Shown here one piece after another: positions 3,625 to 25,562 of a stretch of DNA of 34,222 nt. Both the position numbers and the translations under genes were made by a program. A model generated the notes under the pieces. The model was not told where the DNA came from. It saw only the letters and a list, made by a program, of their open reading frames with translations, and did not search any database. Origin of the DNA: Clostridia bacterium (GTDB taxonomy: Bacteria; Bacillota; Clostridia; Oscillospirales; CAG-272); the NCBI GenBank assembly GCA_017936565.1, contig JAGBFG010000032.1:1-34222 (forward strand), given 5' to 3'. Numbering within the stretch: position 1 is the stretch's first letter; each line of letters begins with the position of its first letter.

Positions 3625-3639
3625 AAAGGCAAGCAAAGC

Positions 3640-3683
3640 AAATGCCCCGAGGCCGTTATTTTTGGCTCTTCGGGGCATTTTTT
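3640..3683. terminator. Bidirectional terminator between nhaC and the MFS-GH2 gene
   Basis: The stem AAATGCCCCGA pairs with TCGGGGCATTT and is followed by a T run on the plus strand; A residues on the left side allow weaker use by the convergent minus-strand gene. Confidence 0.85.
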
Positions 3684-3691
3684 ATCGGATT

Positions 3692-6685
3692 TTATTTCAG
3701 CCCATCCTGAAAGGCAGTTTGCAAGGCTTGCGCGATTTCTCTCATTTCTTCGGGGGAAACCTTCAAGATTTGTCTGTCATATGTGAAAAGTCCGTTTGTT
3801 TCCTCTTCAACGTCGCTGACCTGCGTTAAGACAGTCGCGCACAGTCCCTCTCTCACGGCAGGGACTATCTGCTCTTCATATAGAGCACGGGTGGCTTTGC
3901 GGAAGAGCTCTTCCGTCTTCAAAAATTTATAGCCGTAGGTTTTGCTGATGCGGAAGGAATGGGCGGGGATTTTGTAGGAATATCCGCCAAACTCGGAAAG
4001 CACCAAGGGCTTATCGGATTTTTTAAGCTTCACTTTTTTGAAATAGACGTGCTTGCTTTCCACGTCGCTTTGGCTTTCCTTAAACCAGCCTGAGGTGGCA
4101 TCCCAAACTCTTGTGGGGTCTTGGGCTTTTAATTCGCTGTAAATTCTATCCGCCTCATACTGTCCCCAGCCCTCATTGAAAATGGTGTAATACACAACAG
4201 AGGGGTGATTATACAGAAGCGCAACGGTTTCGCGGTTATGCTGCTCAAAAAAGGCGCGGCGTGATTTTGTGGGCTTATGAGAAAAGCCCTTTTGTATACC
4301 GAGCGTGGGAAGCAGAGTATCTATCCCGAAGTGATACGGACCGCTGTTGACCATATCCTGAAAAACAAGCATACCGTACTTATCGCAATAATAATAGAAC
4401 ACCGCAGGCTCAATTTTGATATGCTTGCGAAGGGTATTGAAACCGCATTCCTTCATTTTCAGAATATCGCACAGATACCCCTTCGGCGTTGCGGGAAGGT
4501 AAATGCCATCGCTGTAATAGCCCTGGTCCAAGAGCCCGTGGAAGAAGAAGGGCTCGCCGTTCAGACAAATATATGAACGGTCCTTCACTCTTTTTATATC
4601 TACCGTTCTCAGGGCAAAATAGGACTCAACCGTATCCTCGCCGTCGGAAAGCGTAAAGGTATAGAGATAGGGGTCCTCGGGCGTCCAAGAATGAAGGACT
4701 TTGGGAGAGAGGGTAATGGTATCTCCCTCATAAGCAAAGTGCTCTTCCCCGTCCTCTGTATGAAGGATGAGGGTTTTGGCGCTCTTTCCACCTACCGTCT
4801 TAATGGTGACAGAGGAAAGAGAGGGGGTTATTTTCAGGCTTTCTATATACTGACTCGGCACGCTTTCAAGCCACACAGGCTGCCAGATACCCGAAATGGC
4901 GGTGTACCACATACCGCTGCTTTTGCGGCTTTGCTTGCCATAGGGCAGGTCCGTGTCAAGTCTGTCCTCTACCTCTACTGAGAGCGTGTTTTCCCCCTCG
5001 TGTATGGCGGCGGTAATATCAAGGGAAAAGGGCAGATAACCCCCGATATGAGAGCCGACGGGAGTACCGTTGACAAGGACGCGCGCCTTTTGGTCAACCG
5101 CGCCAAAGTGAAGCAGGATTTTTCCCCTATTGAAATTTTCGGGCAAGGAAAAGGCGCGTTTGTAAATATATTTTTCCTTTTTTCCCAAGGTACAGGCAAT
5201 GCCTGAAAGACGGGACTCGGGCGGAAAGGGCACGCGAATTTGTCCAACGAAAGCCTTTTCGTTCTCGTTTTGTACAAAAAGCGACCATTCTCCGCAAAGG
5301 GAGAGATAGGACTCTCTTTTCATTTGCGGGCGGGGATAATCCTCCCACGAGGAAGAGGTATCCTCCTCAAAGGGTGTTTTCAGAGTCTTGTGCGTGTGCT
5401 GTCCCCTGTCCTTGAAAAAGATGACAAGAAAGGTTGTCAAAGCAGCCAACAGCGCTACTATAAGGGCGGCTACGAAAATGGATTGGTTGGGAAGAAATGA
5501 GGTTGTTCCGTCAGAGTTGACAATGACTTCCGCATCCGCAAGCACCGTCTTTCCAATGTAAGGACCGATAATTCCGGGGAACAGCACTTGGGAAAAAATC
5601 CTGATTCCCTGCAATCTTCCCGCTTCTCCCTTTGGGGTCAGGTCGCGAATTCTCGCACCGAACACCGCCGAGGCAGACAAAAAGCCGCACATCATAAACA
5701 AAGAGCCAAAGAAAACGGGCAGCTTGGTTTGGGTGGTAGCTAAAAGGACGTAGCCAAGGCAGAGGGAAAACAGAGAGATAAACACCGAAAAGGGATATCC
5801 CTTTTTATCATAGACTCTGCCCCAAAGGGCTGTGACGACAGATGCAAGAATCACAGCAGGCGCCATAATGAAGACATAATCCGCCATGCCCAAGGAAGCC
5901 TCATAATAAATGATGAGATAGGGCATAAAAATCTGAATAGAGATATGGAAGAGGACAAAGCAAAGCAAGCAAAGATAAAGGGCGGGGTTGCGCTTGACGG
6001 TGGAAGGCAGAAAGCCATGCAAAACGGTTCTCATATATCCGTCCTCGGATTTTTTCACGGGCGCGTCCTTTATGATAAAAAAGCCCAAGGCACCGACAAC
6101 CAGAACCACAACGCCGATGATAACGAAAATAAGAGTCCAAGAGGACGCCTTGTCCAAATCAAAAGCCATAAAGCCGCCGAACACCGCAAGGATGGACACC
6201 AAGGGCATCATCGCATTAATGCCCTCAGCAGCGCCGCGGTTGGTTTCGTCGGTGCTATCAGTCAGCCACGCGTTAAAGGCGGCATCGTTGGCAGAGGAGC
6301 CAAAGAAGGTCATTAAGCAATCGAAGGTAATCACCAAGCCCACGCCAAGCGTGGCGGCAGAAATGGTGGCGGGGACAAACGGGGCAAGCCAATCCAATCG
6401 GATAAAGGAAAAGCACAGAATAGAAATGCCCCAAAGGATGTATCCGCCGCAAATAAAGAGCTTTCTCTTCCCTATTTTATCCGAAAGAGCGCCAACGAAA
6501 ACGGTGGTCAGCGTGGCAGCGACAGCACTCGCGGCAACCATAGCGGAGATTTGAGAGGCGCTTGCGTGAAACATCTTGTAAATAAAGACGTTGAGATACA
6601 TATTTTCAACTGTCCACGCGACCTGTCCCATAAAGCTGAACAATACCAGGGCGCACCAGAATTTACCCGAGAGCTTTGTTTTCAT
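3692..6685 (-). CDS. MFS transporter fused to a GH2 glycoside hydrolase
   Basis: One uninterrupted 997-codon frame. Residues 1-425 form an MFS permease: about 12 hydrophobic segments, a motif A-like 'GALSDKIGKRK' at 65-75 and a charged half-way loop at about 206-232. A polar linker (426-449) leads into a glycoside hydrolase family 2 protein: sugar-binding sandwich from about 455, an immunoglobulin-like domain, and a TIM barrel from about 765. Glu838 in 'FNEGW' fits the acid/base and Glu898 in 'LSEFGG' the nucleophile. With an even number of membrane segments the hydrolase would face the cytoplasm, so a glycoside could be imported and cleaved by one polypeptide. The ATG at 6685 has a GGAAGGGA site upstream. 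The GH2 part (about 550 residues) is near the usual length of short GH2 enzymes. Substrate unknown; beta-glucuronide or beta-galactoside-like sugars are possible. Confidence 0.88.
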   Translation of the reverse strand: MKTKLSGKFWCALVLFSFMGQVAWTVENMYLNVFIYKMFHASASQISAMVAASAVAATLTTVFVGALSDKIGKRKLFICGGYILWGISILCFSFIRLDWLAPFVPATISAATLGVGLVITFDCLMTFFGSSANDAAFNAWLTDSTDETNRGAAEGINAMMPLVSILAVFGGFMAFDLDKASSWTLIFVIIGVVVLVVGALGFFIIKDAPVKKSEDGYMRTVLHGFLPSTVKRNPALYLCLLCFVLFHISIQIFMPYLIIYYEASLGMADYVFIMAPAVILASVVTALWGRVYDKKGYPFSVFISLFSLCLGYVLLATTQTKLPVFFGSLFMMCGFLSASAVFGARIRDLTPKGEAGRLQGIRIFSQVLFPGIIGPYIGKTVLADAEVIVNSDGTTSFLPNQSIFVAALIVALLAALTTFLVIFFKDRGQHTHKTLKTPFEEDTSSSWEDYPRPQMKRESYLSLCGEWSLFVQNENEKAFVGQIRVPFPPESRLSGIACTLGKKEKYIYKRAFSLPENFNRGKILLHFGAVDQKARVLVNGTPVGSHIGGYLPFSLDITAAIHEGENTLSVEVEDRLDTDLPYGKQSRKSSGMWYTAISGIWQPVWLESVPSQYIESLKITPSLSSVTIKTVGGKSAKTLILHTEDGEEHFAYEGDTITLSPKVLHSWTPEDPYLYTFTLSDGEDTVESYFALRTVDIKRVKDRSYICLNGEPFFFHGLLDQGYYSDGIYLPATPKGYLCDILKMKECGFNTLRKHIKIEPAVFYYYCDKYGMLVFQDMVNSGPYHFGIDTLLPTLGIQKGFSHKPTKSRRAFFEQHNRETVALLYNHPSVVYYTIFNEGWGQYEADRIYSELKAQDPTRVWDATSGWFKESQSDVESKHVYFKKVKLKKSDKPLVLSEFGGYSYKIPAHSFRISKTYGYKFLKTEELFRKATRALYEEQIVPAVREGLCATVLTQVSDVEEETNGLFTYDRQILKVSPEEMREIAQALQTAFQDGLK

Positions 6686-6741
6686 CGTGTTTTTCCCTTC
6701 CTATGGCATAGCGAGGATTTTTTGACCGCTTATTTTTTCCT

Positions 6742-6770
6742 ATTATACTTCATTTTTATAAAAAAAGCAA
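6742..6770 (-). promoter_or_regulatory. Promoter of the MFS-GH2 gene
   Basis: On the minus strand, TTGCTT (6765-6770) and TATAAT (6742-6747) are 17 bp apart, about 57 bases before the ATG. Confidence 0.75.
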
Positions 6771-6787: not shown

Positions 6788-6817
6788 AAAAAAACGAGCT
6801 GGCGATGATGCGCCAGC
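6788..6817 (-). terminator. Terminator of the amino-acid ABC operon
   Basis: A perfect 7-bp stem GCTGGCG/CGCCAGC (6798-6804, 6811-6817) is followed, on the minus strand, by a run of seven T after CTCG. Confidence 0.85.
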
Positions 6818-6832
6818 CCTGTAAATTGTAGC

Positions 6833-7741
6833 TTATAAAACCTTTTGTAAAAATTGCTGCAAGCGGGGATTTTGGGGATTTTCAAAGATATCCTTGGGCG
6901 TTCCCTCCTCGGCGATAACGCCGTCCGCCATAAACAGCACTCTGTCGGCAACCTCACGGGCAAAGCCCATCTCGTGCGTCACCACGACCATAGTCATTCC
7001 CTCTTTTGCCAAGTCCTTCATCAAGTCCAAAACCTCGCCGACCATTTCAGGGTCAAGGGCAGAGGTGGGCTCGTCAAACAGAATGACCTCGGGATTCATT
7101 ACAAGAGCGCGCACAATCGCCACTCTTTGCTTCTGACCGCCCGAAAGCTTGGAAGGATATTCGTCCCTCTTATCCGCAAGACCGATTCTCTCTAAAAGAG
7201 ACATAGCCCTTGCTTCCGCCTCTTCCTTGGAGAGAAGCTTTAACTCCACGGGAGCTAAAATAAGGTTTTGGATAACCGTCAGATTGTTGAAGAGATTGAA
7301 ATGCTGGAACACCATTCCCATTCTGCTACGGGCCTTATTGATGTCCTCGCGATACTGGGATTCGATGTCGCGAAGAAGCGTTTTATACGCTTTACCCTCG
7401 CGAGAGGTCAGCAAATCCTTTTCCTTGATTTCCCGAATGATGTCTTCCTTGGCTCTTTCGGGATGCTCCGCTTGCATTTTCCCGAAGGTGCGGGATGCCT
7501 CTATCACGTCAAAATGCAAATACGGGTCGGGCGGGGTTAAAAGACTGTCTTCAAGCCACACCTCGCCATAGGTAGGCTCTTCGAGCAAATTCATACAGCG
7601 AAGGAAGGTGCTTTTTCCGCCGCCTGAGGGACCAATGATAACCACCTGCTCTCCCTTTTGGATTTCGCAGGAAGCGCCCTTCAAAACCTTGATTTCGCCC
7701 TTGGGTCCGAAATTCTTATAAATATTCTTAACGCTTATCAC
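6833..7741 (-). CDS. Polar amino-acid ABC transporter ATP-binding protein with an internal insertion
   Basis: The ATPase of an amino-acid importer (GlnQ/HisP-like). Visible motifs are Walker A 'GPSGGGKS' (37-44), Q-loop Gln146 in 'MVFQHFNLF', signature 'LSGGQ' (199-203), Walker B 'ILFDEP' (220-225) and H-loop His256. The protein has 302 residues, while GlnQ-like ATPases are normally about 240-250. The excess sits between 'EDSLLT' and 'DINKARSR', about residues 70-132, which in relatives is a short link between Walker A and the Q-loop. The insertion is charged and predicted by eye to be largely helical. The start overlaps the permease gene by 14 bases, so translation is probably coupled. It is the last gene of the operon, followed by a strong terminator. 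Confidence 0.9.
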
Positions 7742-9459: not shown

Positions 9460-10470
9460 TCAATGCAAATCACAACACGCCAAAACAAGCCGATACAGCG
9501 AAAGCTCATAGTCATAGGTGTAGGGATTTTCCTTTTCTCCCCTGACGTAGGCGGCAAAGGAACGGAGCATTTCTCTGAATCTATCATAGGGCGGGGTGTT
9601 CTGATGCTCTCCGCGGTGCCCCCACGCTTCCTCGCGGTAGGTGGTTACCTCGCTACGAAGACCAAAGGGGAACTCGCTTTCAACACCGACCTCCAAGGGC
9701 TTGATTTCCACCGTTTGCTTGGTGCCCGTGACGACAAGCTGGCGTCTGATAAAGCCGCCGTATTCCACGTCGGTGGTTTTCACAAAGGAAGTGCCGTGGG
9801 GGTATTCTAAGACTGCCATACCGTAGTCATATGTATCAATGCCGTTCTTCCCTGTGGGCTTGGAGAGAGGAATGACCTTCTCGGGGGTGCCCTGTATAAG
9901 ACAAACCAAGTCAATCAAATGACAACCGAGGAAGAAGAGCATACCGCCCTTGCCAAACGCGCCAAGCCATTCGCGCCAATCGTCCCCGTGCAGACAGCTC
10001 ATCTGGGCCTCGACGCTGACAATATCGCCAAGCTCCCCATTTCTGACACGGGAAAGCAGATCCTTGACTGCGGGATTGTACCGATACATATAGCCTGTAT
10101 GGAAAACCGTTTTGTTTTTCTTGACAATGGAAATCAATTCCTCAAACTCGGAAAGAGAAAGGCCGCCAGGCTTTTCCATATGGATATGCTTTTTGGCTTT
10201 GGCGGCGGCTATGGCGTATTTGGTCAGATAGATCTCCTCTGTTTCAATGCAAACCGCCTCAATAGACTCGTCAGCCAAAATTTCCTCTACCGTCATTTCG
10301 GGAACGTTCTCGAAAATCTTTTCGCAATCCTTGAATTTTTCCTTTTCGTTTTCGGGCAGAGCATATCCCACAAACTCAAACACATCGGGGTTTGTGAGAA
10401 TAGTTTTGGCAACAGCCGCGCCGTGACTGCATATGCTGGTGCCTATCTGTGCCACTCTGATTTTTCTCAT
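9460..10470 (-). CDS. Gfo/Idh/MocA-family NAD(P)-dependent oxidoreductase
   Basis: A 336-residue oxidoreductase of the sugar/inositol dehydrogenase type. The N-terminal Rossmann strand is 'KIRVAQIGTS', and the family motif 'HMEKPGGLS' (EKP at 99-101) marks the cofactor/substrate pocket. The C-terminal half is the usual beta-sheet substrate domain. I start at the ATG 10468-10470, four bases after the stop of the preceding gene; its AGGAAGG site is formed by the last codons of that gene. The longer frame upstream simply overlaps the neighbour. Together with the preceding dehydrogenase it probably oxidises or epimerises a sugar or polyol derivative. Substrate unknown. Confidence 0.9.
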   Translation of the reverse strand: MRKIRVAQIGTSICSHGAAVAKTILTNPDVFEFVGYALPENEKEKFKDCEKIFENVPEMTVEEILADESIEAVCIETEEIYLTKYAIAAAKAKKHIHMEKPGGLSLSEFEELISIVKKNKTVFHTGYMYRYNPAVKDLLSRVRNGELGDIVSVEAQMSCLHGDDWREWLGAFGKGGMLFFLGCHLIDLVCLIQGTPEKVIPLSKPTGKNGIDTYDYGMAVLEYPHGTSFVKTTDVEYGGFIRRQLVVTGTKQTVEIKPLEVGVESEFPFGLRSEVTTYREEAWGHRGEHQNTPPYDRFREMLRSFAAYVRGEKENPYTYDYELSLYRLVLACCDLH

Positions 10471-10474
10471 CGCT

Positions 10475-11503
10475 TCAATTTCCTTCCTCGCATAAGCTCC
10501 AATCAAACTGCACCATGGGGAATGCCTTTTCATTGGCTAAACGGGTATACACCTCGGGGGCTTCTTTGGGGGAGTGGGTTTCCTCTATCAGCTGCGCGAA
10601 GGAAAGACGCCCGCTCTTAACCAAGCGGTAAATGGCTTGCATATCCGCCCTCTCCGTCCACCATCCGTTCGAGGAGTCCACCTGCGGTCTTGCCATGGTG
10701 TGCGCGCCGACAAGGGTGATGCCGGGGGCGTGCACCTTTTTGTAATAGTCGATATTGAAATCGGAGGTGCGGGTGCAGCCAAGAAGCGCCACTCTGCCGA
10801 AATACTGCATACAGTCAAGCACCATATCAAGCGCTCTGCAATTTCCCGTCACCTCAATGGCGACGTTGATACCGCCGTAGCTTGCGCGGCGCACGTTTGC
10901 CTCAAAGTCCTCAGCGAAGGGGTCAAAGGCATAGTCCGCGCCGATTTTCAGCGCCAGCTCTCTTTTTTCGGGAATGGGGTCAACCGCTACGATAACGGAA
11001 GCGCCTGCCGCGCGCAAAAGCTGAATGGCGGTAAGTCCTAAAACGCCAAGTCCCATAACCAGAGCCGTTTCGCCCATTTCCAAGCGGGTTTTACGGATTG
11101 CCGCCAAGGGGAAGGACGCAATGGGCCAGATGGCTGCCTCGGAAAGAGAGATGCTCTCATCAATCACTGTCAGATTTTTTTCGGGAACGATATTGTAGTT
11201 GGTGTGAATGGTCCAAATGGATGCCACACGGTCACCGACCTTCACGCGCGTTACACCCTCACCAACCGCCTCAACAATGCCTGCTGTACTATATCCAAGG
11301 CAACGAGGATAGGTAGCAATTCCGTCCTCGTGACGATTGGGAGATACCGTTTCCTTGCCGATGAGGTTTGCCCGCTCGGTGCCGCTGCTGACGGTGGAAT
11401 ACAAGGTTTTAACCAAAACCATTCCTGCCTGCAATTCTCCTATTTGCTCGGTTTGAAGCTCAGCCTTTAAGGGCGCGGTGAACACGATTTTCTTTCTTTC
11501 CAT
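10475..11503 (-). CDS. Medium-chain dehydrogenase/reductase (zinc-ADH-like, lacking the catalytic-zinc Cys)
   Basis: A 342-residue MDR-superfamily protein with a GroES-like N-terminal domain and a Rossmann domain ('GLGVLG' at 151-156). The position that normally carries the catalytic-zinc Cys ('CGTD') reads 'SSGTER' (about 39-44), and no structural-zinc Cys cluster is seen, so a classical zinc alcohol dehydrogenase mechanism is unlikely. The 'SSGTER' signature resembles the MDR half of so-called bi-domain oxidoreductases, whose second half is a Gfo/Idh domain like the next gene. The ATG at 11501-11503 has a GAAAGGGA site. It is divergent from an AraC regulator that may control it. Confidence 0.88.
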   Translation of the reverse strand: MERKKIVFTAPLKAELQTEQIGELQAGMVLVKTLYSTVSSGTERANLIGKETVSPNRHEDGIATYPRCLGYSTAGIVEAVGEGVTRVKVGDRVASIWTIHTNYNIVPEKNLTVIDESISLSEAAIWPIASFPLAAIRKTRLEMGETALVMGLGVLGLTAIQLLRAAGASVIVAVDPIPEKRELALKIGADYAFDPFAEDFEANVRRASYGGINVAIEVTGNCRALDMVLDCMQYFGRVALLGCTRTSDFNIDYYKKVHAPGITLVGAHTMARPQVDSSNGWWTERADMQAIYRLVKSGRLSFAQLIEETHSPKEAPEVYTRLANEKAFPMVQFDWSLCEEGN

Positions 11504-11555
11504 TTTTATATCCCTTTCTTTTTTTGTTTTTGGGGTAAAATTTCTCGCCATTTTC

Positions 11556-11584
11556 ATTTTACTATCTTGACAGTTAAAAGTAAA
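11556..11584 (-). promoter_or_regulatory. Candidate promoter of the MDR/Gfo-Idh operon
   Basis: On the minus strand, TTTACT (11579-11584) and TAAAAT (11556-11561) are 17 bp apart. It overlaps the divergent AraC promoter, so the two would compete or be co-regulated. Confidence 0.5.
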
Positions 11585-11659: not shown

Positions 11660-12409
11660 ATGACTGATGCCATTTTTTCAAACGGTTTTGCATTCGCGAA
11701 ATACAAAAGAGGAAAATACAGCTATACCGACAACAGGGGCGGTACAGACGCGCATTTTTTTGCTTATATGGTGCAAGGAAGCTGTCGTATTATCACCGAA
11801 AAAGAGGACGTATATATCAAGGCAGGTGATTTTTTCTACATTCCCAAGGACTGCGCCTATCAATCTGTTTGGGAAGATGAGCGAGAGGTTGTTTTTTACT
11901 CTCTGCGTTTCCTTTGCCTACCTGTTTTTAACCGTCAAAGCTACCCTTGCCAAGCCATTCCTTTTGATGAGGAAGCCTATTCCTCTTTACAAAAAATCAA
12001 TTTCTCTTCTCGCCTATGCGCCAAGGATATCGGGTATTTTTACACCCTTGCGGCAAGGCTTTTGCTTTTTATGCGTGCCATTCCGAAAAGCAAGGGCGAA
12101 GAGATTATGGACATAGTTACCCTACTGCTTCACGAAGACCCGCACGCATCCCCCGCCTTGCTGGCGGAGAAATGCCACATTTGCGAGTCGTCTTTGTACC
12201 GCATTTTCGCGCAAAACAACCGCTCGCTTCTTGGGGTCCGTCAGAATGTGATATTGGAAAAGGCAAAAACCCTGCTGATTACAACCGATAAATCCATTGA
12301 AGACATCAGCGCTTCTCTTGGCTTCAGCTCCTCTTCCTATTTTCGCAAGCTCTTTAAGAAAAAGTTTTCTCTCACGCCAAGAGCTTTGAGAAAGAGCCAA
12401 GGCATTTAG
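11660..12409 (+). CDS. AraC-family transcriptional regulator
   Basis: A 249-residue regulator. The N-terminal part (about 1-130) is a cupin-like sensor ('YIKAGDFFYIPKDCAYQSVW'). The C-terminal part (about 155-245) contains two helix-turn-helix units, ending in the AraC signature-like 'IEDISASLGFSSSSYFRKLFKKKFSLTP'-type region. An AAAGGGAG site precedes the ATG. It is transcribed away from the MDR/Gfo-Idh operon across a shared 156-bp region with overlapping promoters, the standard layout for a local activator responding to the pathway's sugar-like ligand. The effector is unknown. Confidence 0.9.
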   Translation: MTDAIFSNGFAFAKYKRGKYSYTDNRGGTDAHFFAYMVQGSCRIITEKEDVYIKAGDFFYIPKDCAYQSVWEDEREVVFYSLRFLCLPVFNRQSYPCQAIPFDEEAYSSLQKINFSSRLCAKDIGYFYTLAARLLLFMRAIPKSKGEEIMDIVTLLLHEDPHASPALLAEKCHICESSLYRIFAQNNRSLLGVRQNVILEKAKTLLITTDKSIEDISASLGFSSSSYFRKLFKKKFSLTPRALRKSQGI

Positions 12410-14970: not shown

Positions 14971-15002
14971 AGCGCAATGGTATCAAAACGGTATCATTGC
15001 GC
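14971..15002 (+). terminator. Weak terminator or attenuator hairpin before the peptide ABC operon
   Basis: A 9-bp stem AGCGCAATG/CATTGCGCT with a 14-nt loop is followed only by TTTAT. It could let a part of transcription continue into the next gene. Confidence 0.4.
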
Positions 15003-15054
15003 TTTATGGGTTGCCGCAAGGCACAAGATTTCCAAAGAAGGACAGGTTTTCACT

Positions 15055-16917
15055 ATGCAACATTTCTTCAAACGCGCCATTTCCCTGCTTTGCCTTTTGG
15101 CAATTCTCACGGTTTCCTTCGTGAGCTGCGGGGCTGGCGGAAACAAAGAACGGATGAACGATACCACCGACACGCTGTATGTCGGTCACGTGGGCACGTC
15201 ATTCCCCACCTCATATATGCCCTGGCAATCCCGTGACGGCATAGCGCCCACGCTTTCCAGTATGATTTACAGCACCCTTTTTTCTTACGATGAAAACACC
15301 GCGTCTTATGAGCCTTCCTTGGCAAAGGAATGGTATTATATCGCTCCTGACGGCACACCTCTTCTGACCGAGAACGGAGAGACGGACTATGACGCGATTG
15401 AATATTATTACGGCAATAGCGGCTCTTACATTCCCGTCAAAATCATTTTGCACGAAAACGCCACTTGGAGTGACGGAACGCCCGTCACGGCAGAGGATAT
15501 TTATTTTACCTTGGACTTGTGTGCGGACAGCTCCCGCTCCAACCACGCGGGCGCTTTGGCTTGGGTTTCCGATTTGGAGCATCGCTATACAAGCGGTATT
15601 ATGACAAAGCAAGGCATTTTCACCGCTGAGCATCCCGGAAAATACACCTTCACCGAGGAAGAAGAGGATACCGTCGTATATTTGCACACCTCAAAGGTGC
15701 TTGGCGCTATCGCTTCCCTCTTTACGACCATTCTGATACTGCCAAGGCATTTATGGCAGCCTGTCATTTCCACCGATATGCCCGCCAACTCCACCGAGCC
15801 GAACGAGGCCTTGCGCAGCTTATATCAAAATCCCGTGGGATGCGGCCCGTTTACGCTTGAGCAGGAAAGCTCCAATGCGCAGGTAATCGTTCTGAACCGT
15901 CGGGAAGATTATCATATGAAGGACGGGGACGAATTACTCTACAAGGTAGACAGAATCAAGTTTATTTTGTATCAGGAGCAAAACGTTGCTATCTTCTCCA
16001 TTCTGAACGGCTATATAGATGTGCTTGATTCCTCTATCAGCCCCAACTACCGCACCTTGTTTGAAAAAGAGGACGATATGCAGGTGTTGGAAGCGGGCAA
16101 CTCCTTTGTCAACACCCTGGTTCTGAACCTCAATCCCCCCACGTCCGAGCAAAACGAAATGCGGGCGCTTTTGGGGAACGTGGAGTTCAGAAAGGCGCTG
16201 GCTTTGGCTATCAACCAAAGGGAGCTCATACAGAACGTACAAAGCGGAGCGGCAAGCACATACAGCTCAGGGCTTGTTTCATCTTCTATGGTGGATATTT
16301 ACGAGCCGAGCGCCGACAGAATGCAGGGAGACGTTGCCGAAAGGCTGAAAGAGGCAAATCGGCTGCTTGATGCCATTGTTCCCGACAAAGATGAAAAGGG
16401 CTACCGTTTGCTTAATGGAAAACGCGTTTCCTTTGATATTTTGACCTCTCCCGGTGAGCAGGATTTGGTTAGCTTCTTACAGGTGCAGTTTCAAAAGACT
16501 GGCATTGACGTGAAGTTTGCCGCGCAAGGCAGCTCTCCCGAAAATACCTATTTTTACAGCGGAAAGTTTGATATGGCTACCCAAGGGGTAAGCATTACCC
16601 CCTCTACTGCGGACATTATGCTGAAATCTCATTTTGTCACGATGGGCAAGTCCTCTAATTACGGCAGACTGAATAACGCACAGCTGACCGCCAAGATTGA
16701 AGAAATGCGCAAGACGCTGAACAGAAACACAAAATATGACCTTTTGAAGGAAATACAGGTTTTGATTGCCGAGCAGTATTACAAAATTCCGCTTTACAGC
16801 AGCAACGTTATTTCCGTGGCAAGAACTGACCGCTATACAGGTTGGATTTCTGTGGAAGGCGGAACTGCCTTCACCACCGAGAGCTTGCAAAACCTTCAAA
16901 GGGTAAACGCAAAATAA
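15055..16917 (+). CDS. Oligopeptide-type ABC substrate-binding lipoprotein (SBP_bac_5 family)
   Basis: A 620-residue extracellular binding protein. The ATG at 15055-15057 is preceded by AAGGA, and a lipoprotein signal ends at Cys25 ('FVSC'). Family landmarks are 'EPSLAKEWYY' early in the mature protein, 'ATWSDGTPVTAEDIYFTLD' (the conserved WsDG-P-ta-Dv segment), 'NPVGCGPFTLE' and 'VEFRKALALAINQREL'. At 620 residues it is somewhat longer than typical members (about 500-560). The permeases and ATPases follow directly, so it should deliver peptides or a related substrate to that transporter; some members of this family bind nickel or oligosaccharides instead. Confidence 0.93.
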   Translation: MQHFFKRAISLLCLLAILTVSFVSCGAGGNKERMNDTTDTLYVGHVGTSFPTSYMPWQSRDGIAPTLSSMIYSTLFSYDENTASYEPSLAKEWYYIAPDGTPLLTENGETDYDAIEYYYGNSGSYIPVKIILHENATWSDGTPVTAEDIYFTLDLCADSSRSNHAGALAWVSDLEHRYTSGIMTKQGIFTAEHPGKYTFTEEEEDTVVYLHTSKVLGAIASLFTTILILPRHLWQPVISTDMPANSTEPNEALRSLYQNPVGCGPFTLEQESSNAQVIVLNRREDYHMKDGDELLYKVDRIKFILYQEQNVAIFSILNGYIDVLDSSISPNYRTLFEKEDDMQVLEAGNSFVNTLVLNLNPPTSEQNEMRALLGNVEFRKALALAINQRELIQNVQSGAASTYSSGLVSSSMVDIYEPSADRMQGDVAERLKEANRLLDAIVPDKDEKGYRLLNGKRVSFDILTSPGEQDLVSFLQVQFQKTGIDVKFAAQGSSPENTYFYSGKFDMATQGVSITPSTADIMLKSHFVTMGKSSNYGRLNNAQLTAKIEEMRKTLNRNTKYDLLKEIQVLIAEQYYKIPLYSSNVISVARTDRYTGWISVEGGTAFTTESLQNLQRVNAK

Positions 16918-16983
16918 ACCGCGCATAACTAAAATTTCCAAGAAAGGAAAAGAAAGCTTGCCAAGCAAGTTTTGACTGAAACC

Positions 16984-17982
16984 ATGCAAAAAAGTTATGT
17001 CATCAAGCGTATTTTATATACGGTGCTGATTTTCTTTGTTGTCTTAACGCTGAACTTCTTTATCCCGCGCATTGGCGTTGAAGACCCCGCCGAGCGCTAC
17101 TATCCCCCGCAGGGCAATATGAGCGACGATGCTTATGAGGCGGTAAAGGAGCTGACCAGAAAGCAATACGGCTTTGACGTTTCTACCGCCGAGCAATATA
17201 TCCGCTATGTTTCCGATTTGTTTCACGGCGATTTGGATACATCCTTCAAGTCGGGCTCACCCAAGGTTGCCGATTTGATTTTCGAGCGTATTCCTTGGAC
17301 GCTGGTGCTTTCTTTAAGCACAATGCTCATTGGCGCGATTTTAGGTATTTCCTTTGGCGCCTTTGCGGCTTGGCGGCGAGGGCGCTGGCCGGATTTGATT
17401 TTGATGAACGCCTCTACCTTTACCACCGCGCTTCCCTCTTTCTTTATCGCGTTGATTCTGGTTCTCTATATGGGCTTTGAATGGGAATGGTTCCCAGCCT
17501 ACACCGACCCCAATATGGTAGCTGGCTTTGACTGGTCCTGGGAAGCCATTGGCCGTGTGTTTTACAATGCGGCGCTTCCTATTTTCAGTATGGCTATCGG
17601 CAGTATTGTCAGCTATGCACAAACAACCCGAAACAGCGTGATTGCCGTGTCGGGCGAGGACTTCATTTTAACGGCGAGAGCCAAGGGGCTTTCCAATTCC
17701 ACGGTGCTTTACAAGCACACGCTGCGCAACGCCGTTTTGCCCATTGTGACGAGCCTTGGTATGAGCGTCAGCGGTTTGATTGGCGGCGCGGTTGTTATTG
17801 AGCAGATTTTTAACTGGAACGGTATGGGAACTCTGTTTTTAGAGGCAAACAATACCAACGACTATCCCTTGATGATGGGCATTATGCTCTTTCTCTCCAC
17901 CTTCGCCTTGGTTGCTAACCTTGTGACCGACCTTTGTTACAGCTTGCTCGACCCGCGTGTAACCGTTGGGGACAAACGCTGA
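16984..17982 (+). CDS. oppB: Oligopeptide/dipeptide ABC transporter permease, OppB/DppB type
   Basis: A 332-residue membrane protein beginning 'MQKSYVIKRILYTVLIFF', typical of OppB/DppB. The conserved EAA loop is 'DFILTARAKGLSNSTVLYKH' with 'LRNAVLPIVTSLG' after it, and the C-terminus 'LCYSLLDPRVTVGDK' is the family's usual end. I use the ATG at 16984; a TTG twelve bases upstream is possible. The nearest good ribosome binding site (AAGGAAA, about 16945) is unusually far away, so the start is less certain than the gene. The external loop after the first helix (about 30-95) is long, as in other members. Confidence 0.92.
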   Translation: MQKSYVIKRILYTVLIFFVVLTLNFFIPRIGVEDPAERYYPPQGNMSDDAYEAVKELTRKQYGFDVSTAEQYIRYVSDLFHGDLDTSFKSGSPKVADLIFERIPWTLVLSLSTMLIGAILGISFGAFAAWRRGRWPDLILMNASTFTTALPSFFIALILVLYMGFEWEWFPAYTDPNMVAGFDWSWEAIGRVFYNAALPIFSMAIGSIVSYAQTTRNSVIAVSGEDFILTARAKGLSNSTVLYKHTLRNAVLPIVTSLGMSVSGLIGGAVVIEQIFNWNGMGTLFLEANNTNDYPLMMGIMLFLSTFALVANLVTDLCYSLLDPRVTVGDKR

Positions 17983-18011
17983 CAGAGAGAACAAAGGAAA
18001 GGAAGAATAAA

Positions 18012-19064
18012 ATGGAAAACTTTTGGAAAAAGGCGGGCAAGGGCATAAAGGCCTTTGGAATAGCCTCTTGGAAGAAAATCAAAAAGGCCATCCTTGGCTT
18101 CGGCGATTTTATCAAAAAGCTCTGGATGCGTCCCAAAGGACGTGTGGGACTTATTTTGTTGGCGCTTCTCTTTATTTGCGCCGTTTTCGCGCCCGTGATT
18201 GCTCCGTTTGACCCCTATGACGTGACACAGCGCGCCGCAAAGGGATTAAGTCCCTCTTGGGAACACCCCTTGGGCACTACCATCACCACAGGACAAGACA
18301 TTTTCAGTATGCTGATTTACGGCTCGCGCGTTTCTCTGTCCATTGGCTTGATAACAGGCATTTTAACCGCCTTTATCGGCGCTTTTATGGGCATTCTGGC
18401 AGGATACATCGGCTCTTGGGTCGATACCGTTATTATGCGCGTGGTGGACGTTATGCTTGTCATTCCTACCCTGCCCTTAACCATTGTGCTTACCAACCTC
18501 TTTGGCAAGAGCTATGGAATGATTATCTTTATTTTCACTCTGTTTGGTTGGACGGGACTCTCGCGCGTGGTGCGCTCGCAAACCCTTGTGTTAAAGAACA
18601 GCAACTACGTAAAAGCAGCAGAGCTGGCGGGGGCTAGCCGCATGCATATTATGATGCGGCATATTCTGCCCGGCGTTTCGCACCTGCTCATTATGTCCAC
18701 TGCCTTAACCAGCGCCGGTATTATGGTGGCTGAGGCGGGGCTGAGCTTTCTCGGTCTTGGCGACCCGACGGCTATCAGTTGGGGCAAAATGCTTGCCGAG
18801 GTACAAAGCGGCGGCGCGATGCTGTTTGGTCATTGGTGGTGGATCATCGCCCCCGGTATCGGTATTTTCCTGGCGGTGTTTGCCTTTATGCGTATCGGCG
18901 TTGCGATGGAAGAGGTATTCAACCCCCGTATGAAGCAGACCAGCAGCGTATACAAAATCTTCAAAAACTTAAACGGTGCTTACATCGAAGAGGTTTTTGA
19001 CTCTATGGACGAAAAAGAAAAGCTCGGCTACATCGAAGAAAAGGAGCGTGTGCGGCATGAATGA
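18012..19064 (+). CDS. oppC: Oligopeptide/dipeptide ABC transporter permease, OppC/DppC type
   Basis: A 350-residue permease partner of the preceding gene. A cytoplasmic N-terminal extension of about 45 Lys-rich residues precedes the first membrane segment ('VGLILLALLFICAVFAPVIAPFDPYD', the family's hallmark start). 'HPLGTTITTGQDIFSMLIYGSR' and the EAA loop 'YVKAAELAGASRMHIMMRHI' are also typical. The ATG at 18012 has a good GGAAG site. The C-terminus has an extra tail of about 45 residues, rich in Glu and Lys, that ordinary OppC proteins lack. The stop overlaps the next gene by eight bases. Confidence 0.93.
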   Translation: MENFWKKAGKGIKAFGIASWKKIKKAILGFGDFIKKLWMRPKGRVGLILLALLFICAVFAPVIAPFDPYDVTQRAAKGLSPSWEHPLGTTITTGQDIFSMLIYGSRVSLSIGLITGILTAFIGAFMGILAGYIGSWVDTVIMRVVDVMLVIPTLPLTIVLTNLFGKSYGMIIFIFTLFGWTGLSRVVRSQTLVLKNSNYVKAAELAGASRMHIMMRHILPGVSHLLIMSTALTSAGIMVAEAGLSFLGLGDPTAISWGKMLAEVQSGGAMLFGHWWWIIAPGIGIFLAVFAFMRIGVAMEEVFNPRMKQTSSVYKIFKNLNGAYIEEVFDSMDEKEKLGYIEEKERVRHE

Positions 19065-20085
19065 CGAAAAGAAAATCTCTTCCCCTGACACAACCGAACA
19101 AGAAAACACGCTCACCTTGCGCAATTTGAAGGTTATTTTTCCAAACGAAGCCGGTGTTATCCGAGCGGTTGAAGGCATTGACCTTGATATTAAGCCCGGT
19201 GAATGCGTTGCCCTGGTGGGTGAATCGGGCTGCGGAAAAAGCATGACCTCCTTGGCAATTATGAAGCTATTAAGCTCCCCGCCCGCTATGATACGAGTGG
19301 ACGAATTAAAATTAAACGGCGAGGATTTAACGCTTCTTTCCGAGCAAAAAATGCAATCCATCAGAGGCAGTCAGATGTCTATGATTTTCCAAGACGCTAT
19401 GACCGCCTTAAACCCTGTTATGACCGTTGGCCGTCAGTTAGACGAAATCTTTATGCGCCACAGCAATATGAAGCGCAAGGAAGCCAAGGAGCACAGCATC
19501 AAGGCTTTGGCAATGGTGGGTGTTCCCTCTCCTGAGCTGCGGTATAAGGATTTTCCCCATCAGCTTTCGGGCGGTATGCGCCAAAGAGTGCTGATCGCGA
19601 TGGCATTTGCCTGCCAACCCAAGCTCATCATAGCAGACGAGCCGACAACCGCCTTGGATGTGACCATTCAAGCGCAGGTTTTGGAGCTTTTGTCGGATAT
19701 GCAACGCAAGCACAATACTTCTCTTTTGCTGATTACGCACGATTTGAGCATCGTTGCCAATATGGCAGACCGCATTTACGTGATGTATTCGGGCAAGATT
19801 GTGGAAACGGCAAACGCCTACGAGCTGTTCAAAAAGCCCTTGCATCCCTATACAGAGGGGCTGCTTGGCGCTATTCCCCGTCTTTCCGATGACCACCACG
19901 AGTTCATTCAGATTCCCGACTCAGTGCCGCATCCGATGTTCAAGCCCCAGGGCTGTTATTTCCACCCTCGCTGTCGGTATGCCACCGAGGAATGCAAATG
20001 CGATATGCCACCCTTGCGAGAAATCGCGCCCGGGCACTGTGTGCGCTGCTTTCACCCCTTGTCCGAAAAGGGCGAAGATAAATAA
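19057..20085 (+). CDS. oppD: Oligopeptide ABC transporter ATP-binding protein, OppD type
   Basis: A 342-residue ATPase with Walker A 'GESGCGKS', signature 'LSGGMRQR', Walker B '[12 protein letters not shown]' and an H-loop in 'LLITHDLSI'. The C-terminal oligopeptide-transport domain carries four Cys ('[10 protein letters not shown]', 'EECKC', 'HCVRC'), a pattern associated with an iron-sulfur cluster in OppD/DppD proteins. The ATG at 19057 lies inside the end of the preceding gene with an AAGGAG site ten bases before it, so translation is coupled. It would pair with the OppF-type ATPase to drive the importer. Confidence 0.95.
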
Positions 20086-20132
20086 GCAGACCTACTTGCC
20101 CCTCGATACATATAAGAAAGGTGTCCTTTGTT

Positions 20133-21164
20133 ATGGCTGATATACAAAACAATCCCCCTCTTGCCCAAGAGGTTGATGAAAAGGGCAATCTGCCCCTTGT
20201 TTCCGTCAGAAATTTGTCTGTGCATTTTCCTGTGGGCGGCGGGTTTCTTTTCGGTAAGAAAAAGACCGTCAAGGCCGTTTCTGACATTTCCTTGGATATT
20301 TACCCGGGAGAGACCTACGGTCTTGTTGGTGAGTCGGGGTGCGGAAAAAGCACCCTGGCAAACACCATGCTCGGAATGATCACGCCCACCGAGGGTACGG
20401 TATACTTCAAAGGAAAAGATTTGTTTGGCGTTGACAAAAAGACCTTCACGGAAATGCGCCGCGGTATGCAAATGATTTTCCAAGACCCCTATTCCTCTCT
20501 CAATCCCCGCTTTGACGTGTTGCAGATTATCGGCGAGCCGTTAAAGATTCGCGGCGGCTATACCGATGAGGAGATTGAAGCAAGAGTGCTTGAGCTTTTG
20601 CGCTTGGTGGGTCTGTCGGATAAAGACCTTCACCGCCATCCATCCGATTTTTCGGGCGGGCAGCGGCAAAGAATCGGTATCGCCCGCGCCATTATTCTCA
20701 ACCCTGATTTTTTGGTTTGTGACGAGCCTGTTTCCGCGCTTGACGTTTCTGTTCACGCGCAAATTCTCAACCTTTTGATGAAGCTGCAAAAGGAAATCGG
20801 GATGACCTATCTTTTCATTTCTCATAATCTGGCGGTGGTGAAAACCATTTGCACCCATATGACCGTTATGTATTTGGGCAAGATGATGGAGAGCGGAAAA
20901 ACCGAGAGCATCTATAAAAATCCTATGCACCCCTATACCCAAGCCCTGCTTTCCGCGGTGCTTGACATTGACGTGGACAACAAGAAGGAGCGAACCATCT
21001 TGAAGGGGGATATTCCCAGCCCCATTGACCCGCCCATCGGCTGCCGTTTTTGTCAGCGCTGTCCCAAGGCGATGGAAAAGTGCAAGTACATTCAACCCGA
21101 AACCGTTGAGGTGGAGCCCGGGCACTTTGTTGCCTGCCATCTCTGTTCAGGGGAAAGGGTATAA
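20133..21164 (+). CDS. oppF: Oligopeptide ABC transporter ATP-binding protein, OppF type
   Basis: A 343-residue ATPase. Walker A 'GESGCGKST', Q-loop in 'QMIFQDPYSSLNPRF' (the OppF/DppF hallmark), signature 'FSGGQRQR' and Walker B 'FLVCDEPVSALD' are all present. The C-terminus has the oligopeptide domain with Cys-rich segments ('GCRFCQRCPKAMEKC'). The ATG at 20133 has AAAGGTG upstream. It is separated from oppD by 47 bases and followed after two bases by a small membrane-protein gene. Confidence 0.95.
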   Translation: MADIQNNPPLAQEVDEKGNLPLVSVRNLSVHFPVGGGFLFGKKKTVKAVSDISLDIYPGETYGLVGESGCGKSTLANTMLGMITPTEGTVYFKGKDLFGVDKKTFTEMRRGMQMIFQDPYSSLNPRFDVLQIIGEPLKIRGGYTDEEIEARVLELLRLVGLSDKDLHRHPSDFSGGQRQRIGIARAIILNPDFLVCDEPVSALDVSVHAQILNLLMKLQKEIGMTYLFISHNLAVVKTICTHMTVMYLGKMMESGKTESIYKNPMHPYTQALLSAVLDIDVDNKKERTILKGDIPSPIDPPIGCRFCQRCPKAMEKCKYIQPETVEVEPGHFVACHLCSGERV

Positions 21165-21616: not shown

Positions 21617-22876
21617 TTAAGGGGAAGCCTTTTTGCCGATACGGCGCTTCGCAAGGCGATAAATCGGAAAGATAAGACAGGCAAGCGTGCAAAAGCCGAG
21701 CAGCACGTAAAAGACGGCGTTCCAGCCCCAATTTTCTGCCACAAAGCCAATACCGTAGGAGCTGATAGCGCTACCCACATAACAAAATCCGTCCAAGACG
21801 CCCGCATAAAGCCCTGAATTGCCTCGGCTTCGCATAAACAAGGGGAAGACGGCAGTAATGAGGTTGTTAAGGCTTGCCGCCAAAAAATTGACCGCAACCA
21901 AGAGGACAAGCAAAAGCAACGCCTCTTTGACGGTAAGGGAGCCGATAATTCCTAAAATCAGCACGCCTATAATGAAAAAGACAAAGCCGCAATGAGAAAC
22001 ATAGTCGGGAATTTTTTTATGTAAGAACAACGCCGCTGGGTTTGCAAATATCGCCACGACAAGCAAAAGCAGGGTAAGAAAAATCGAAAGTGAGTCGGGC
22101 ATCATATACTCTTCCTTTAAGATAGAAGGAACCCAAGTGGTGAGTCCGTCCTTGACGAGATTCACGCCCACCGCGCAAAAGCACAGAGAGGAAAACAAGA
22201 GGGCAAAGGTCTTGCCGTTTGTTTTACTTTCTTTCGTGGGAAGCGAGGCTTGAAGGACATTCTCTTCCCCGTCTTGCCTCACCTTTTCGCTTTTTGCCCA
22301 AGACGTCGCCCTACCGTAGAGAAAAAGCCAGACAAGCGAAACCGTTATATCCGCAAAGGCGGCTGTGAAAAAGGCGAGCTTAAAGCGCCCAAAAATCGCA
22401 TAGAGAGAGCTTAGTCCGTAAATGAGGAGCGTGCCGCTGGCAACCGTCGTTCCCATCACGAAGCTGGATTTTCCCAAATCCTTTTTGGGTAAGGATTCTG
22501 ACAAAAGGCGTATCAGGCTCGGCCACAAAAGCGACAAGGTAAAGCCGTTGACCAGCCACAGCCACTTAATGAAACCGAAGCTTTGACTGACGGCAACAGC
22601 CAGATTAAAAACGCCCGACAAAAACAAGCTTCCAAACACAACCCATTTGACGTTGTATTTTTTGCACATCATGCCGTTTATCACTTGCCCTATTCCATAA
22701 GAAAAGAAGAAAAAGGTCGGCACAAGCCCCGCTTCTGATTTTGTGACACCGTAAAAATCGACAATTTGCGTGATATTGGCAGAATAGTTTACTTTGCCAA
22801 GATAGGATGAGGCGTATAACAGCCAGCAAAGAAAAATCAAAAGTCCCGTACCGTTACGCTTACGTAGGTTTTCCAT
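21617..22876 (-). CDS. MFS transporter, organophosphate:phosphate antiporter (GlpT/UhpT-like)
   Basis: A 419-residue MFS permease with about 12 membrane segments. The N-terminus 'WLLYASSYLGKVNYSANI' and 'FFFSYGIGQVINGMM' match the GlpT/UhpT/PgtP style, which exchanges sugar phosphates or glycerol 3-phosphate for phosphate. A long cytoplasmic loop (about 190-220) separates the halves. The ATG at 22876 has a GGAAGG site. It is divergent from a BNR-propeller gene across 175 bp with two good promoters, which suggests a joint carbohydrate role. The exact cargo cannot be read from sequence. Confidence 0.82.
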   Translation of the reverse strand: MENLRKRNGTGLLIFLCWLLYASSYLGKVNYSANITQIVDFYGVTKSEAGLVPTFFFFSYGIGQVINGMMCKKYNVKWVVFGSLFLSGVFNLAVAVSQSFGFIKWLWLVNGFTLSLLWPSLIRLLSESLPKKDLGKSSFVMGTTVASGTLLIYGLSSLYAIFGRFKLAFFTAAFADITVSLVWLFLYGRATSWAKSEKVRQDGEENVLQASLPTKESKTNGKTFALLFSSLCFCAVGVNLVKDGLTTWVPSILKEEYMMPDSLSIFLTLLLLVVAIFANPAALFLHKKIPDYVSHCGFVFFIIGVLILGIIGSLTVKEALLLLVLLVAVNFLAASLNNLITAVFPLFMRSRGNSGLYAGVLDGFCYVGSAISSYGIGFVAENWGWNAVFYVLLGFCTLACLIFPIYRLAKRRIGKKASP

Positions 22877-22920
22877 TTGTTTTTCTTCCTTTCCGAAGAC
22901 TAAAAAGAAATGACAGTCAC

Positions 22921-22949
22921 ATTATACTCCGCTTCGCGACAAAAAGCAA
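22921..22949 (-). promoter_or_regulatory. Promoter of the OPA-type transporter gene
   Basis: On the minus strand, TTGCTT (22944-22949) and TATAAT (22921-22926) are 17 bp apart. Confidence 0.75.
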
Positions 22950-22970
22950 GAGAAAAAAACGTTTTTTCAC

Positions 22971-22999
22971 TTGCAAAATCCACGTTTTTGTGTTATTCT
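22971..22999 (+). promoter_or_regulatory. Promoter of the BNR-propeller gene
   Basis: TTGCAA (22971-22976) and TATTCT (22994-22999) are 17 bp apart. The GTG start codon is about 53 bases downstream. Confidence 0.7.
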
Positions 23000-23051
23000 A
23001 TGGAAAGTAAAAGAAAATACGTTCCAGCAACAAAAAAGAAAGGGGATAACC

Positions 23052-24110
23052 GTGCATACCAGCAAAATCATTCACGGCAAGGTTCGTGACATTTCGTTAA
23101 GCGACCCTATTTTATACATTGATAACGAGGCAAGAGGAAGAAGCGGTCATATGGGACATCCCATTCTCAACCTCGGGGGCGGAAAAATCATGGATTTCAA
23201 TTCCAACGTTTCCGCTGTGCGCTGTGACGGGCATTCTGGCTTTGGCTTTATGGAATACCGTCTTTCCGAGGATTATGGGGAAACCTTTGGGGATTTTCAT
23301 ATTGTTCCTTACAGCTACCAGACCTTGCTTGACGGGCTGTATTCCGCCATCATTGAAACTGCCGTCGTATGTGATGACGGCTCTATCGTCGCCTTTTGCA
23401 ATTTATTTTCTCAATCGGATATAGGCTGCTGTATGCCCTTTCAAAGGCCCACCTATATTCGCTCGACTGACGGTGGGGAAACCTGGGAAGAGGCAAGAGG
23501 TCTTTCGGGTTTTGAGGGCAGAGTGTACGCCTCTCGCTACCACGAGGGTGTCATTTACGTGCTGCAATTCTGCAACAGCGACTTTTTGGGAAAGGATGAG
23601 GAGCATCTTTATCGCCTCTTCATCAGCCGCGACAACGGTCTTTCCTTCCAAGAGCTTTGCGTTGTGCCGTTTGCTTCTACCCTTCAAAGAGGCTATTGCA
23701 ATTTTATTTTTGACCAACAGGGGCGCCTGATAGTCTACGCCTACAACGCCGAAAAGGAAGAGAAAATGGACTATATCATCAGCGAAGACCTTGGAAAAAC
23801 GTTTGGCGAGAGCGGCGTCTGCTATCTTGCAAGGAAAATCCGCAATCCGCAAATCGCTCTCTTTGACGGGCAATTCATTCTGCACGGCAGAGAGGCGGAT
23901 AAGATAAACGCTCTTGTGCTATACACCTCATCTGACGGCATCCACTGGGATGAGGGCACACGGATTGTAGACATTCATCCTGCCATTTCCTTTTATTCCA
24001 ACAACGCCGTTATTGAAAAGGACGGTAAAAGCCGCCTTCTTTTGCAATATTCTCAAACCTACAAGGAAAGCTGCTGCGTCAATATCTATCATATGTGGAT
24101 AGATAACTGA
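23052..24110 (+). CDS. Sialidase-like BNR/Asp-box beta-propeller protein
   Basis: A 352-residue protein with Asp-box motifs of the sialidase propeller: 'SEDYGETF', 'STDGGETW', 'SRDNGLSF', 'SEDLGKTF', and a weaker 'SSDGIHWD'. These mark a six-bladed propeller as in exo-sialidases (GH33) and related enzymes. I start at the GTG at 23052, which has an AAAGGGG site and begins the conserved part; the frame upstream overlaps the promoter. There is no signal peptide, so it should act in the cytoplasm, unlike most sialidases. The Arg triad and Tyr/Glu nucleophile pair were not identified by eye, so catalytic activity is unproven. It may process a sugar imported by the divergent transporter. Confidence 0.82.
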   Translation: MHTSKIIHGKVRDISLSDPILYIDNEARGRSGHMGHPILNLGGGKIMDFNSNVSAVRCDGHSGFGFMEYRLSEDYGETFGDFHIVPYSYQTLLDGLYSAIIETAVVCDDGSIVAFCNLFSQSDIGCCMPFQRPTYIRSTDGGETWEEARGLSGFEGRVYASRYHEGVIYVLQFCNSDFLGKDEEHLYRLFISRDNGLSFQELCVVPFASTLQRGYCNFIFDQQGRLIVYAYNAEKEEKMDYIISEDLGKTFGESGVCYLARKIRNPQIALFDGQFILHGREADKINALVLYTSSDGIHWDEGTRIVDIHPAISFYSNNAVIEKDGKSRLLLQYSQTYKESCCVNIYHMWIDN

Positions 24111-24121
24111 TGCGATAAAGC

Positions 24122-24172: not shown

Positions 24173-24181
24173 CTATAAGGC

Positions 24182-25531: not shown

Positions 25532-25562
25532 ATGAAAAGATCCTTTCTCGCTTATTGCTTGA

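Follow-up and report, generated by a model that had tools for sequence, protein, structure and literature searches.

A conserved fusion of an MFS permease to a GH2 module of probable furanosidase type in gut Clostridia

The window analyzed here, a stretch of 34,222 nucleotides from a Clostridia bacterium (GenBank assembly GCA_017936565.1, contig JAGBFG010000032.1, positions 1 to 34,222), carries on its minus strand a gene in which a permease of the major facilitator superfamily (MFS) is fused in one frame to a module of glycoside hydrolase family 2 (GH2). Our analysis confirmed that this fusion is genuine and conserved, as similarity searches recovered the same architecture in at least 40 further distinct loci. 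The system represents a recurring, conserved fusion of a probable sugar permease and a glycosidase that would be expected to act on the permease's cargo.

Architecture and distribution of the fused gene

The frame comprises 997 codons and runs from 6685 down to 3692, whereas the plus strand from 3692 contains several stops. The initial annotation had reported this 997-codon frame at 3692..6685 without naming its strand and had read an MFS permease and a complete-looking GH2 module in it. Both points were borne out by Pfam, which matched the window's protein with MFS_1 at residues 15-375 (111.3 bits against a cut-off of 33.4; model positions 3-347 of 347), with Glyco_hydro_2_N at residues 505-610, and with Glyco_hydro_2_C at residues 700-866 (model positions 3-163 of 302), the latter two both above their curated cut-offs. 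No EIIA or other EII domain was detected in the Pfam and NCBIfam scans of the window's protein. The gene and its modules are as follows.

3692..6685, minus strand: fused MFS permease-GH2 gene, 997 amino acids, ATG to TAA
5417..6685, minus strand: MFS permease module, residues 1-423 (MFS_1 match, hydropathy, loop charges)
5339..5416, minus strand: joining stretch, residues 424-449 (about 26 residues), similar to the leader (TPFE...SW..YPRP) at the N-terminus of free-standing GH2 relatives
3695..5338, minus strand: GH2 module, residues 450-997, group III (furanosidase type) from Pfam and structure-chain comparisons

The loci compared were chosen by their similarity to the fused protein, with the best 80 of 558 confirmed loci taken from the species-genome scan, and the class counts are therefore not prevalences. 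The 102 loci classed comprised 44 fused genes, 14 adjacent MFS-GH2 pairs, 36 loci with GH2 only, 7 with MFS only, and 1 other. Once duplicates had been removed for the trees (L087 duplicates L011), 41 fused loci (window included), 13 pairs, and 35 GH2-only loci were left, giving at least 41 distinct fused loci, 40 of them besides the window. One locus classed as GH2 only, L008, is a fused gene truncated by the contig end, since its open frame begins inside the last helix. MFS_1, Glyco_hydro_2_N, and Glyco_hydro_2_C were all matched in 35 of 35 fused proteins scanned.

In three taxonomic samples, each including the window's genome, an uninterrupted full-length fusion was present in 6 of 69 genomes at the genus level (plus G032, cut at a contig end), 9 of 295 at the order level (plus G572, likewise cut), and 1 of 398 at the phylum level, with report limits of 1e-100 for the genus and order samples and 1e-60 for the phylum sample, and with at most two candidates scored per listed genome in the order and phylum samples. 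Within the order sample, the two genes lay side by side in 10 of 295 genomes, including G597 (identical to L048, with one in-frame stop at the joint), and were both present but apart in 9 of 295. The relatives thus form a graded series of separate genes, abutting MFS-GH2 genes, and fusions. Of the two doubts raised in the initial annotation, that the fusion might be absent from every related genome is dispelled by the other fused loci, whereas a stop in the linker does occur in L031, L048, and other two-gene forms, alongside many uninterrupted ones.

The named hosts of the fused loci are metagenome-assembled genomes (MAGs) of Oscillospiraceae, Lachnospiraceae, and other Clostridia, together with one Treponemataceae MAG and one unplaced bacterium; a further host is the strain Acetatifactor muris DSM 23669, in which the fusion lies on a 157-kb contig. 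Record titles name herbivore gut samples as the source of many loci, and many of the bacteria with the fused gene come from animal guts. Plasmid records contained matches, but 0 of 102 covered 80% of the query.

Membrane topology

Twelve transmembrane segments were assigned to the MFS module from 11 hydropathy peaks (above 1.3) and TM11 (about residues 361-381), which, like the helix borders, was placed by hand. The mean number of Lys and Arg residues in 35 fused proteins was 2.9, 3.9, 1.2, 4.1, 2.1, 2.7, and 4.3 for the presumed inside segments, and 0.9, 0.0, 0.7, 0.6, 0.9, and 1.1 for the presumed outside segments, the most positive segment being the one after helix 12 (4.3). These values agree with a location of both MFS ends inside the cell. 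Because the charges alternate along the 12 helices, the loop charges place the GH2 module at the cytoplasmic side in this predicted topology, lending support to the side assigned to the hydrolase in the initial annotation. A 12-residue N-terminal stretch exceeding 0.92 on the hydropathy scale was lacking in 30 of 35 GH2-only rows, and this type of enzyme therefore looks cytosolic here. The five rows exceeding 1.2 were the cut fusion L008, L071 and L081 (whose starts both lie well ahead of the motif), L069, and L089; L079, L080, and L089 are cut at the contig start, with the N-terminus outside the sequence. The GPH model MFS_2 (PF13347) did not match the window's protein at E 0.001 and gave a weak match in 2 of 35 fused proteins.

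Furanosidase-type features of the GH2 module

Four residues of the GH2 module are relevant to its predicted activity.

4172..4174, minus strand: Glu838, predicted acid/base, in the context FNEGWGQY, aligned with NEGWGQ of the Streptomyces galactofuranosidase
3992..3994, minus strand: Glu898, predicted nucleophile, in the context SEFGGY, from sequence position and alignment
4355..4357, minus strand: Asp777 (QDM), corresponding to D423 of Streptomyces ORF1110 by counting back from E464
3824..3826, minus strand: Thr954, putative equivalent of the Thr that replaces Trp at the -1 subsite in group III, aligned to 7sf2, 9j6n, and 7xyr

The closest solved chains to the window's GH2 module were 7sf2 (E 7e-98), 9j6n/9j6m (about 1e-85), and 7xyr (2e-53), and the module aligned with 7sf2 and 9j6n over almost its whole length. 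The chain pair 9j6n/9j6m, the closest one named by activity, is a β-D-galactofuranosidase of Streptomyces JHA19. A profile built from 30 GH2 modules scored 547 bits with 7sf2, 497 with 9j6n, and 372 with 7xyr, followed by 153 for 5c70, a glucuronidase. In Lebreton et al. 2025 (PMC12243196), 9J6M is placed in GH2_18 and 7XYR, uncharacterized, in GH2_19, both within group III; furanosidase activities, including galactofuranosidase and arabinofuranosidase, are described there as specific to this group, in which a Thr stands where the other groups have the -1 Trp. Thr954 aligns with a Thr in 7sf2, 9j6n, and 7xyr and is presumably the Thr meant, and 7sf2 would also belong to group III, judging from the profile scores. 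By these comparisons, the GH2 module falls within group III (GH2_18/GH2_19), with the scores favouring the GH2_18 structure (497 versus 372 bits).

The initial annotation had proposed Glu838 and Glu898 as the catalytic pair; both residues are found where it put them, and together with Asp777 and Thr954 they showed no variation across the 35 aligned fused proteins, the window's among them. The NEGWGQ context equates E838 with E464 of ORF1110 from Streptomyces strain JHA19, the strain that also provided 9j6m, which is either ORF1110 itself or its neighbour. According to PMC4560423, D423A and E464A were the most drastic changes in ORF1110, an enzyme that cleaves galactofuranosides and not arabinofuranosides, and PMC11084152 reports that changes at E464 (assigned as acid/base) cut kcat/KM 56- to about 3000-fold. 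Galactofuranosides therefore appear likelier as cargo than ordinary β-glycosides, as the kinship with group III replaces the β-glycosides of the initial annotation, whose GH2 assignment stood, with furanosides, most likely β-D-galactofuranosides (PMC12243196, PMC4560423).

Origin of the joint and evolutionary history

Among 35 fused proteins, the joint (residues 424-448) showed the lowest conservation, with an aligned length of 20-67 residues. Stand-alone GH2 proteins carry a leader of the type RLC-L-TPFE...W-YPRP, and a similar leader follows directly behind the last helix in the fused proteins. A TP[FYW] motif preceding the PRP motif by at most 30 residues was present in 23 of 37 fused, 18 of 20 GH2-only, and 5 of 11 paired rows, a count limited to rows in which the pattern found the PRP motif (4 fused, 15 GH2-only, and 2 paired rows unscored). 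In view of this likeness, the most fitting interpretation of the linker is a retained GH2 N-terminus, not a new tether. The 24-residue polar linker of the initial annotation is here a joint of about 26 residues that resembles the GH2's own N-terminal leader. Internal re-initiation yielding a free GH2 was also considered and is unsupported: an in-frame Shine-Dalgarno motif with a start (spacing 4-11) was found in the joint of 0 of 40 fused genes (L057 unscored), which gives no sign of an additional GH2 protein.

The stop-to-stop frames of the MFS and GH2 genes overlap by 1 to 134 bases in 11 of 14 pair loci. Two further pairs, L031 and L048, have frames one stop codon apart, that is, a single frame with a lone stop directly followed by ATG, and the MFS frame of the remaining pair, L086, is broken. 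The fused state requires 14 changes on the GH2 tree, at least six of them forced by well-supported branches, and 13 changes on the MFS tree, with at least six forced. On the GH2 tree, monophyly of the fused rows was rejected (approximately unbiased test, p 1.3e-74; quick tree method, some long branches). Since the fused rows do not form one clade, fusion or fission happened repeatedly. In L061 and L074, the MFS half lies outside the main MFS clade and the GH2 half has a long branch inside the family tree; these two loci may represent an independent fusion with another MFS, although long-branch joins are possible there.

The MFS and GH2 distances were correlated over 52 fused or paired loci (r 0.835), as well as over 43 core loci (r 0.693), with L057 and L086 left out and with 0 of 2000 permutations as high in either case. 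In six close pairs of relatives, which do not include the window, both modules are under purifying selection, with omega values of 0.036-0.168 for the MFS and 0.103-0.259 for the GH2 module, some of the dS values underlying them being near saturation.

Gene context

The signals flanking the fusion gene are listed below.

6695..6702, minus strand: AGGAAGGG, ribosome-binding-site-like, 9 nt before the ATG, read by eye
6742..6770, minus strand: promoter-like TTGCTT-17-TATAAT with a perfect -10 and a weak -35, found by eye and absent from the scanner's list
6796..6819, minus strand: intrinsic-terminator-like hairpin, from the scanner, located between the ABC ATPase gene upstream (6833-7741) and the fusion gene
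3641..3679, minus strand: terminator-like hairpin 3' of the fusion gene with an imperfect T-rich tail, found by eye; the scanner gives a weaker one at 3634-3649

With a promoter-like box upstream and terminator-like hairpins on both sides, the fusion gene looks monocistronic. No widely recurring neighbour of the fused genes was found, in a comparison based mostly on loci from the species-genome scan, the others having a flank of about 1.5 kb. The largest neighbour cluster touching fused loci, a MATE family (two members scanned), was present in 5 fused loci, 1 pair, and 1 GH2-only locus.

The unfused GH2 in the window's genus has a different, recurring gene context. The free-standing gene is often preceded by a protein cluster, the only scanned member of which is Rce1-like (CAAX-protease type), in seven loci (L012, L013, L014, L017, L020, L021, and L022), and a protein of about 190 amino acids, without a Pfam match in the one scanned, lies 3' of it in L014, L017, L018, L019, and L021.

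The neighbourhoods of stand-alone MFS genes of the same subfamily lend weak support to a sugar cargo: a GH95 family gene lies two genes away in L133 and a beta-helix protein adjoins the MFS gene in L136, whereas other copies stand beside unrelated genes (MatE in L131, DcuC in L134, and an AAA ATPase in L097). In L155 (2308-5097, minus strand), a gene for an SGNH/GDSL-like hydrolase, recognized from motifs by eye, follows an MFS gene of this subfamily with zero bases between them, a candidate for another transporter-enzyme pair. A 932-residue open frame in G645 was considered as another MFS fusion and rejected, because a stop terminates its MFS gene and the gene beginning at the very next base is SGNH-like (by eye).

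Elsewhere in the window, positions 21617-25591 hold a possible small glycan locus, in which a second MFS permease (minus strand, 419 amino acids) is divergent from a BNR/Asp-box repeat protein (plus strand, 379 amino acids, sialidase-like repeats), followed by a GH39-like protein (minus strand, 469 amino acids). An oligopeptide-type ABC transporter occupies 14977-21164 in one direction (SBP_bac_5, two permeases, and two oligo_HPY ATPases), and the frames of a GFO/IDH/MocA oxidoreductase and a zinc alcohol dehydrogenase, overlapping by about 60 bases, lie at 9460-11557 beside an AraC-type regulator (11660-12409).

Discussion

We favour, with moderate confidence, a reading of the fusion protein as a self-contained importer with a tethered cytosolic furanosidase, forming an uptake-and-cleavage unit; here we infer the import direction, the substrate, its being shared by both halves, and any kinetic gain. 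The 12-helix MFS half would import a small furanose-containing glycoside, most likely a β-D-galactofuranoside or, alternatively, α-L-arabinofuranosides. The GH2 half, about 26 residues from the last helix, would cleave this cargo at the cytoplasmic face, and cleavage inside would let the product accumulate in the cell. Galactofuranose released in the cytoplasm would become ordinary galactose and enter the Leloir route. Abutting MFS and GH2 genes may have become fused when the stop separating them was lost, either on more than one occasion or with recurrent splitting, and the GH2's former leader was kept as the joint. Fusion would provide equal stoichiometry, membrane placement, and one-gene mobility, the last suggested by the lack of a widely recurring neighbour. 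Given how variable the joint is and how readily fused and two-gene forms are exchanged, the benefit of fusion is probably modest.

Several observations weigh against the importer-furanosidase reading. The MFS module has no close solved relative, its best match being AmpG (9c3f, E 8.5e-7, profile positions 123-329 only), followed by LmrP. The best NCBIfam match of the GH2 module is a β-glucuronidase, whose score of 108 bits is far below the cut-off of 544, and 7xyr was labelled β-glucuronidase by its depositors. No galactofuranose or arabinose gene recurs beside the fused genes within the flanks and neighbours scanned. Galactokinase signatures occurred in 12 and L-arabinose isomerase (AraA) in 1 of the 15 genomes that carry a full-length match (14 without interruption, plus G597 and its one stop; several of the 15 incomplete), compared with an order background of 124 of 147 and 22 of 147, respectively. 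These presences were rejected as substrate evidence for want of enrichment, and the counts therefore argue only that galactose is usable and that L-arabinose is mostly not used by the AraA route. The correlation of MFS and GH2 distances may be explicable by shared ancestry or species history alone, and most relatives lack the fusion, which is present in a minority (6 of 69 in the genus sample).

An artefact of assembly or sequencing that joined two genes deserves practically no credence. The assembly of the window's genome is fragmented and 85% complete, and two relatives (L031, L048) have a lone in-frame stop at the joint, but the artefact is refuted by the same fusion in at least 40 other distinct, independent loci, including that of A. 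muris DSM 23669. A closer contest is posed by co-expression alone, to which we would give slightly less than an even chance: the fusion would fix a 1:1 ratio and a membrane location for two proteins acting on one and the same sugar, with no handover, kinetically equal to the adjacent two-gene form and otherwise compatible with an importer plus furanosidase. Transitions among fused, adjacent, and separate forms are frequent (the fused label changes 14 times on the GH2 tree and 13 times on the MFS tree), suggesting that the fusion is dispensable and enjoys no strong advantage; the joint is also the least conserved part at 20 to 67 residues. Conversely, the fusion is found repeatedly, both modules are constrained in the six close pairs, and a free second GH2 product is not indicated (0 of 40 with motif and start in the joint). 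The GH2 module might also dock under the permease's cytoplasmic opening and take the substrate directly from it, hydrolysis pulling transport forward. Such vectorial hydrolysis seems unlikely to us; if true, it would amount to a group-translocation-like uptake with a glycosidase in place of a phosphotransferase, in a portable one-gene unit.

The substrate could also be an α-L-arabinofuranoside from plant arabinoxylan or pectin instead of a galactofuranoside, a possibility that we consider doubtful but not small. Plant arabinofuranosides are abundant in the herbivore gut, and herbivore gut samples lie behind many loci. Both activities fall within GH2 group III (PMC12243196), yet the closest activity-named chain is a β-D-galactofuranosidase, and ORF1110, from the Streptomyces strain that also yielded this chain, acts on Galf but leaves Araf uncleaved (PMC4560423). 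AraA was present in 1 of 15 genomes with full-length matches, many of these being incomplete and the order background being low too (22 of 147). A regulatory role for the GH2 part, as a sensor or gate acting on the permease in place of a working enzyme, is very improbable. Such a role has a parallel in LacS, which we take to be the EIIA-bearing lactose transporter of Streptococcus thermophilus and in which the IIA domain regulates the permease. The precedent of a sugar permease carrying an EIIA-type soluble domain (PMC8990778) and the existence of GH2_19 relatives with the NE motif replaced (PMC12243196) would fit this role, but E838, E898, and D777 are invariant in 35 of 35 proteins, as expected for an enzyme.

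The importer-furanosidase reading points to a one-gene route for the use of galactofuranose, or arabinofuranose, in gut Clostridia. Nearly the same modules occur naturally as fusions, as neighbours, and apart, which offers a comparison for whether tethering speeds uptake or prevents leakage.

Group translocation by the phosphotransferase system (PTS) ties uptake to a chemical change of the sugar. The proposed unit would share this link, whereas its chemical change would be hydrolysis instead of phosphorylation, in a protein in which no EII domain was found. The group III chains (9J6M/9J6N, 7XYR, and, by score, 7SF2) are free proteins, unlike the fusion here, and about 80% of GH2_18 is described as secreted in PMC12243196. 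The words "MFS", "transporter", and "fusion" do not occur in the main text of that paper, and proteins with transmembrane segments were filtered out in its secretion analysis, so MFS-GH2 forms would drop from view at that step. No description of an MFS-glycoside hydrolase fusion was found in the open-access literature searched. In S. thermophilus, the lactose transporter is also a sugar permease bearing a soluble domain, and a GH2 enzyme is encoded next to it; there, the added domain is a PTS EIIA and the GH2 is a separate gene (PMC8990778). The parallel closest in logic appears to be LplT-Aas, in which an MFS transporter and a cytosolic enzyme for its cargo are encoded by adjacent genes in many bacteria and by one open reading frame in some; it differs in serving lipid remodelling, with a lysophospholipid flippase and an acyltransferase, and hence in cargo and enzyme (PMC11416262). 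The same paper describes the fused LplT-Aas homologues as uncharacterised and reports that LplT expression was disrupted when E. coli Aas was artificially fused to the transporter's C terminus.

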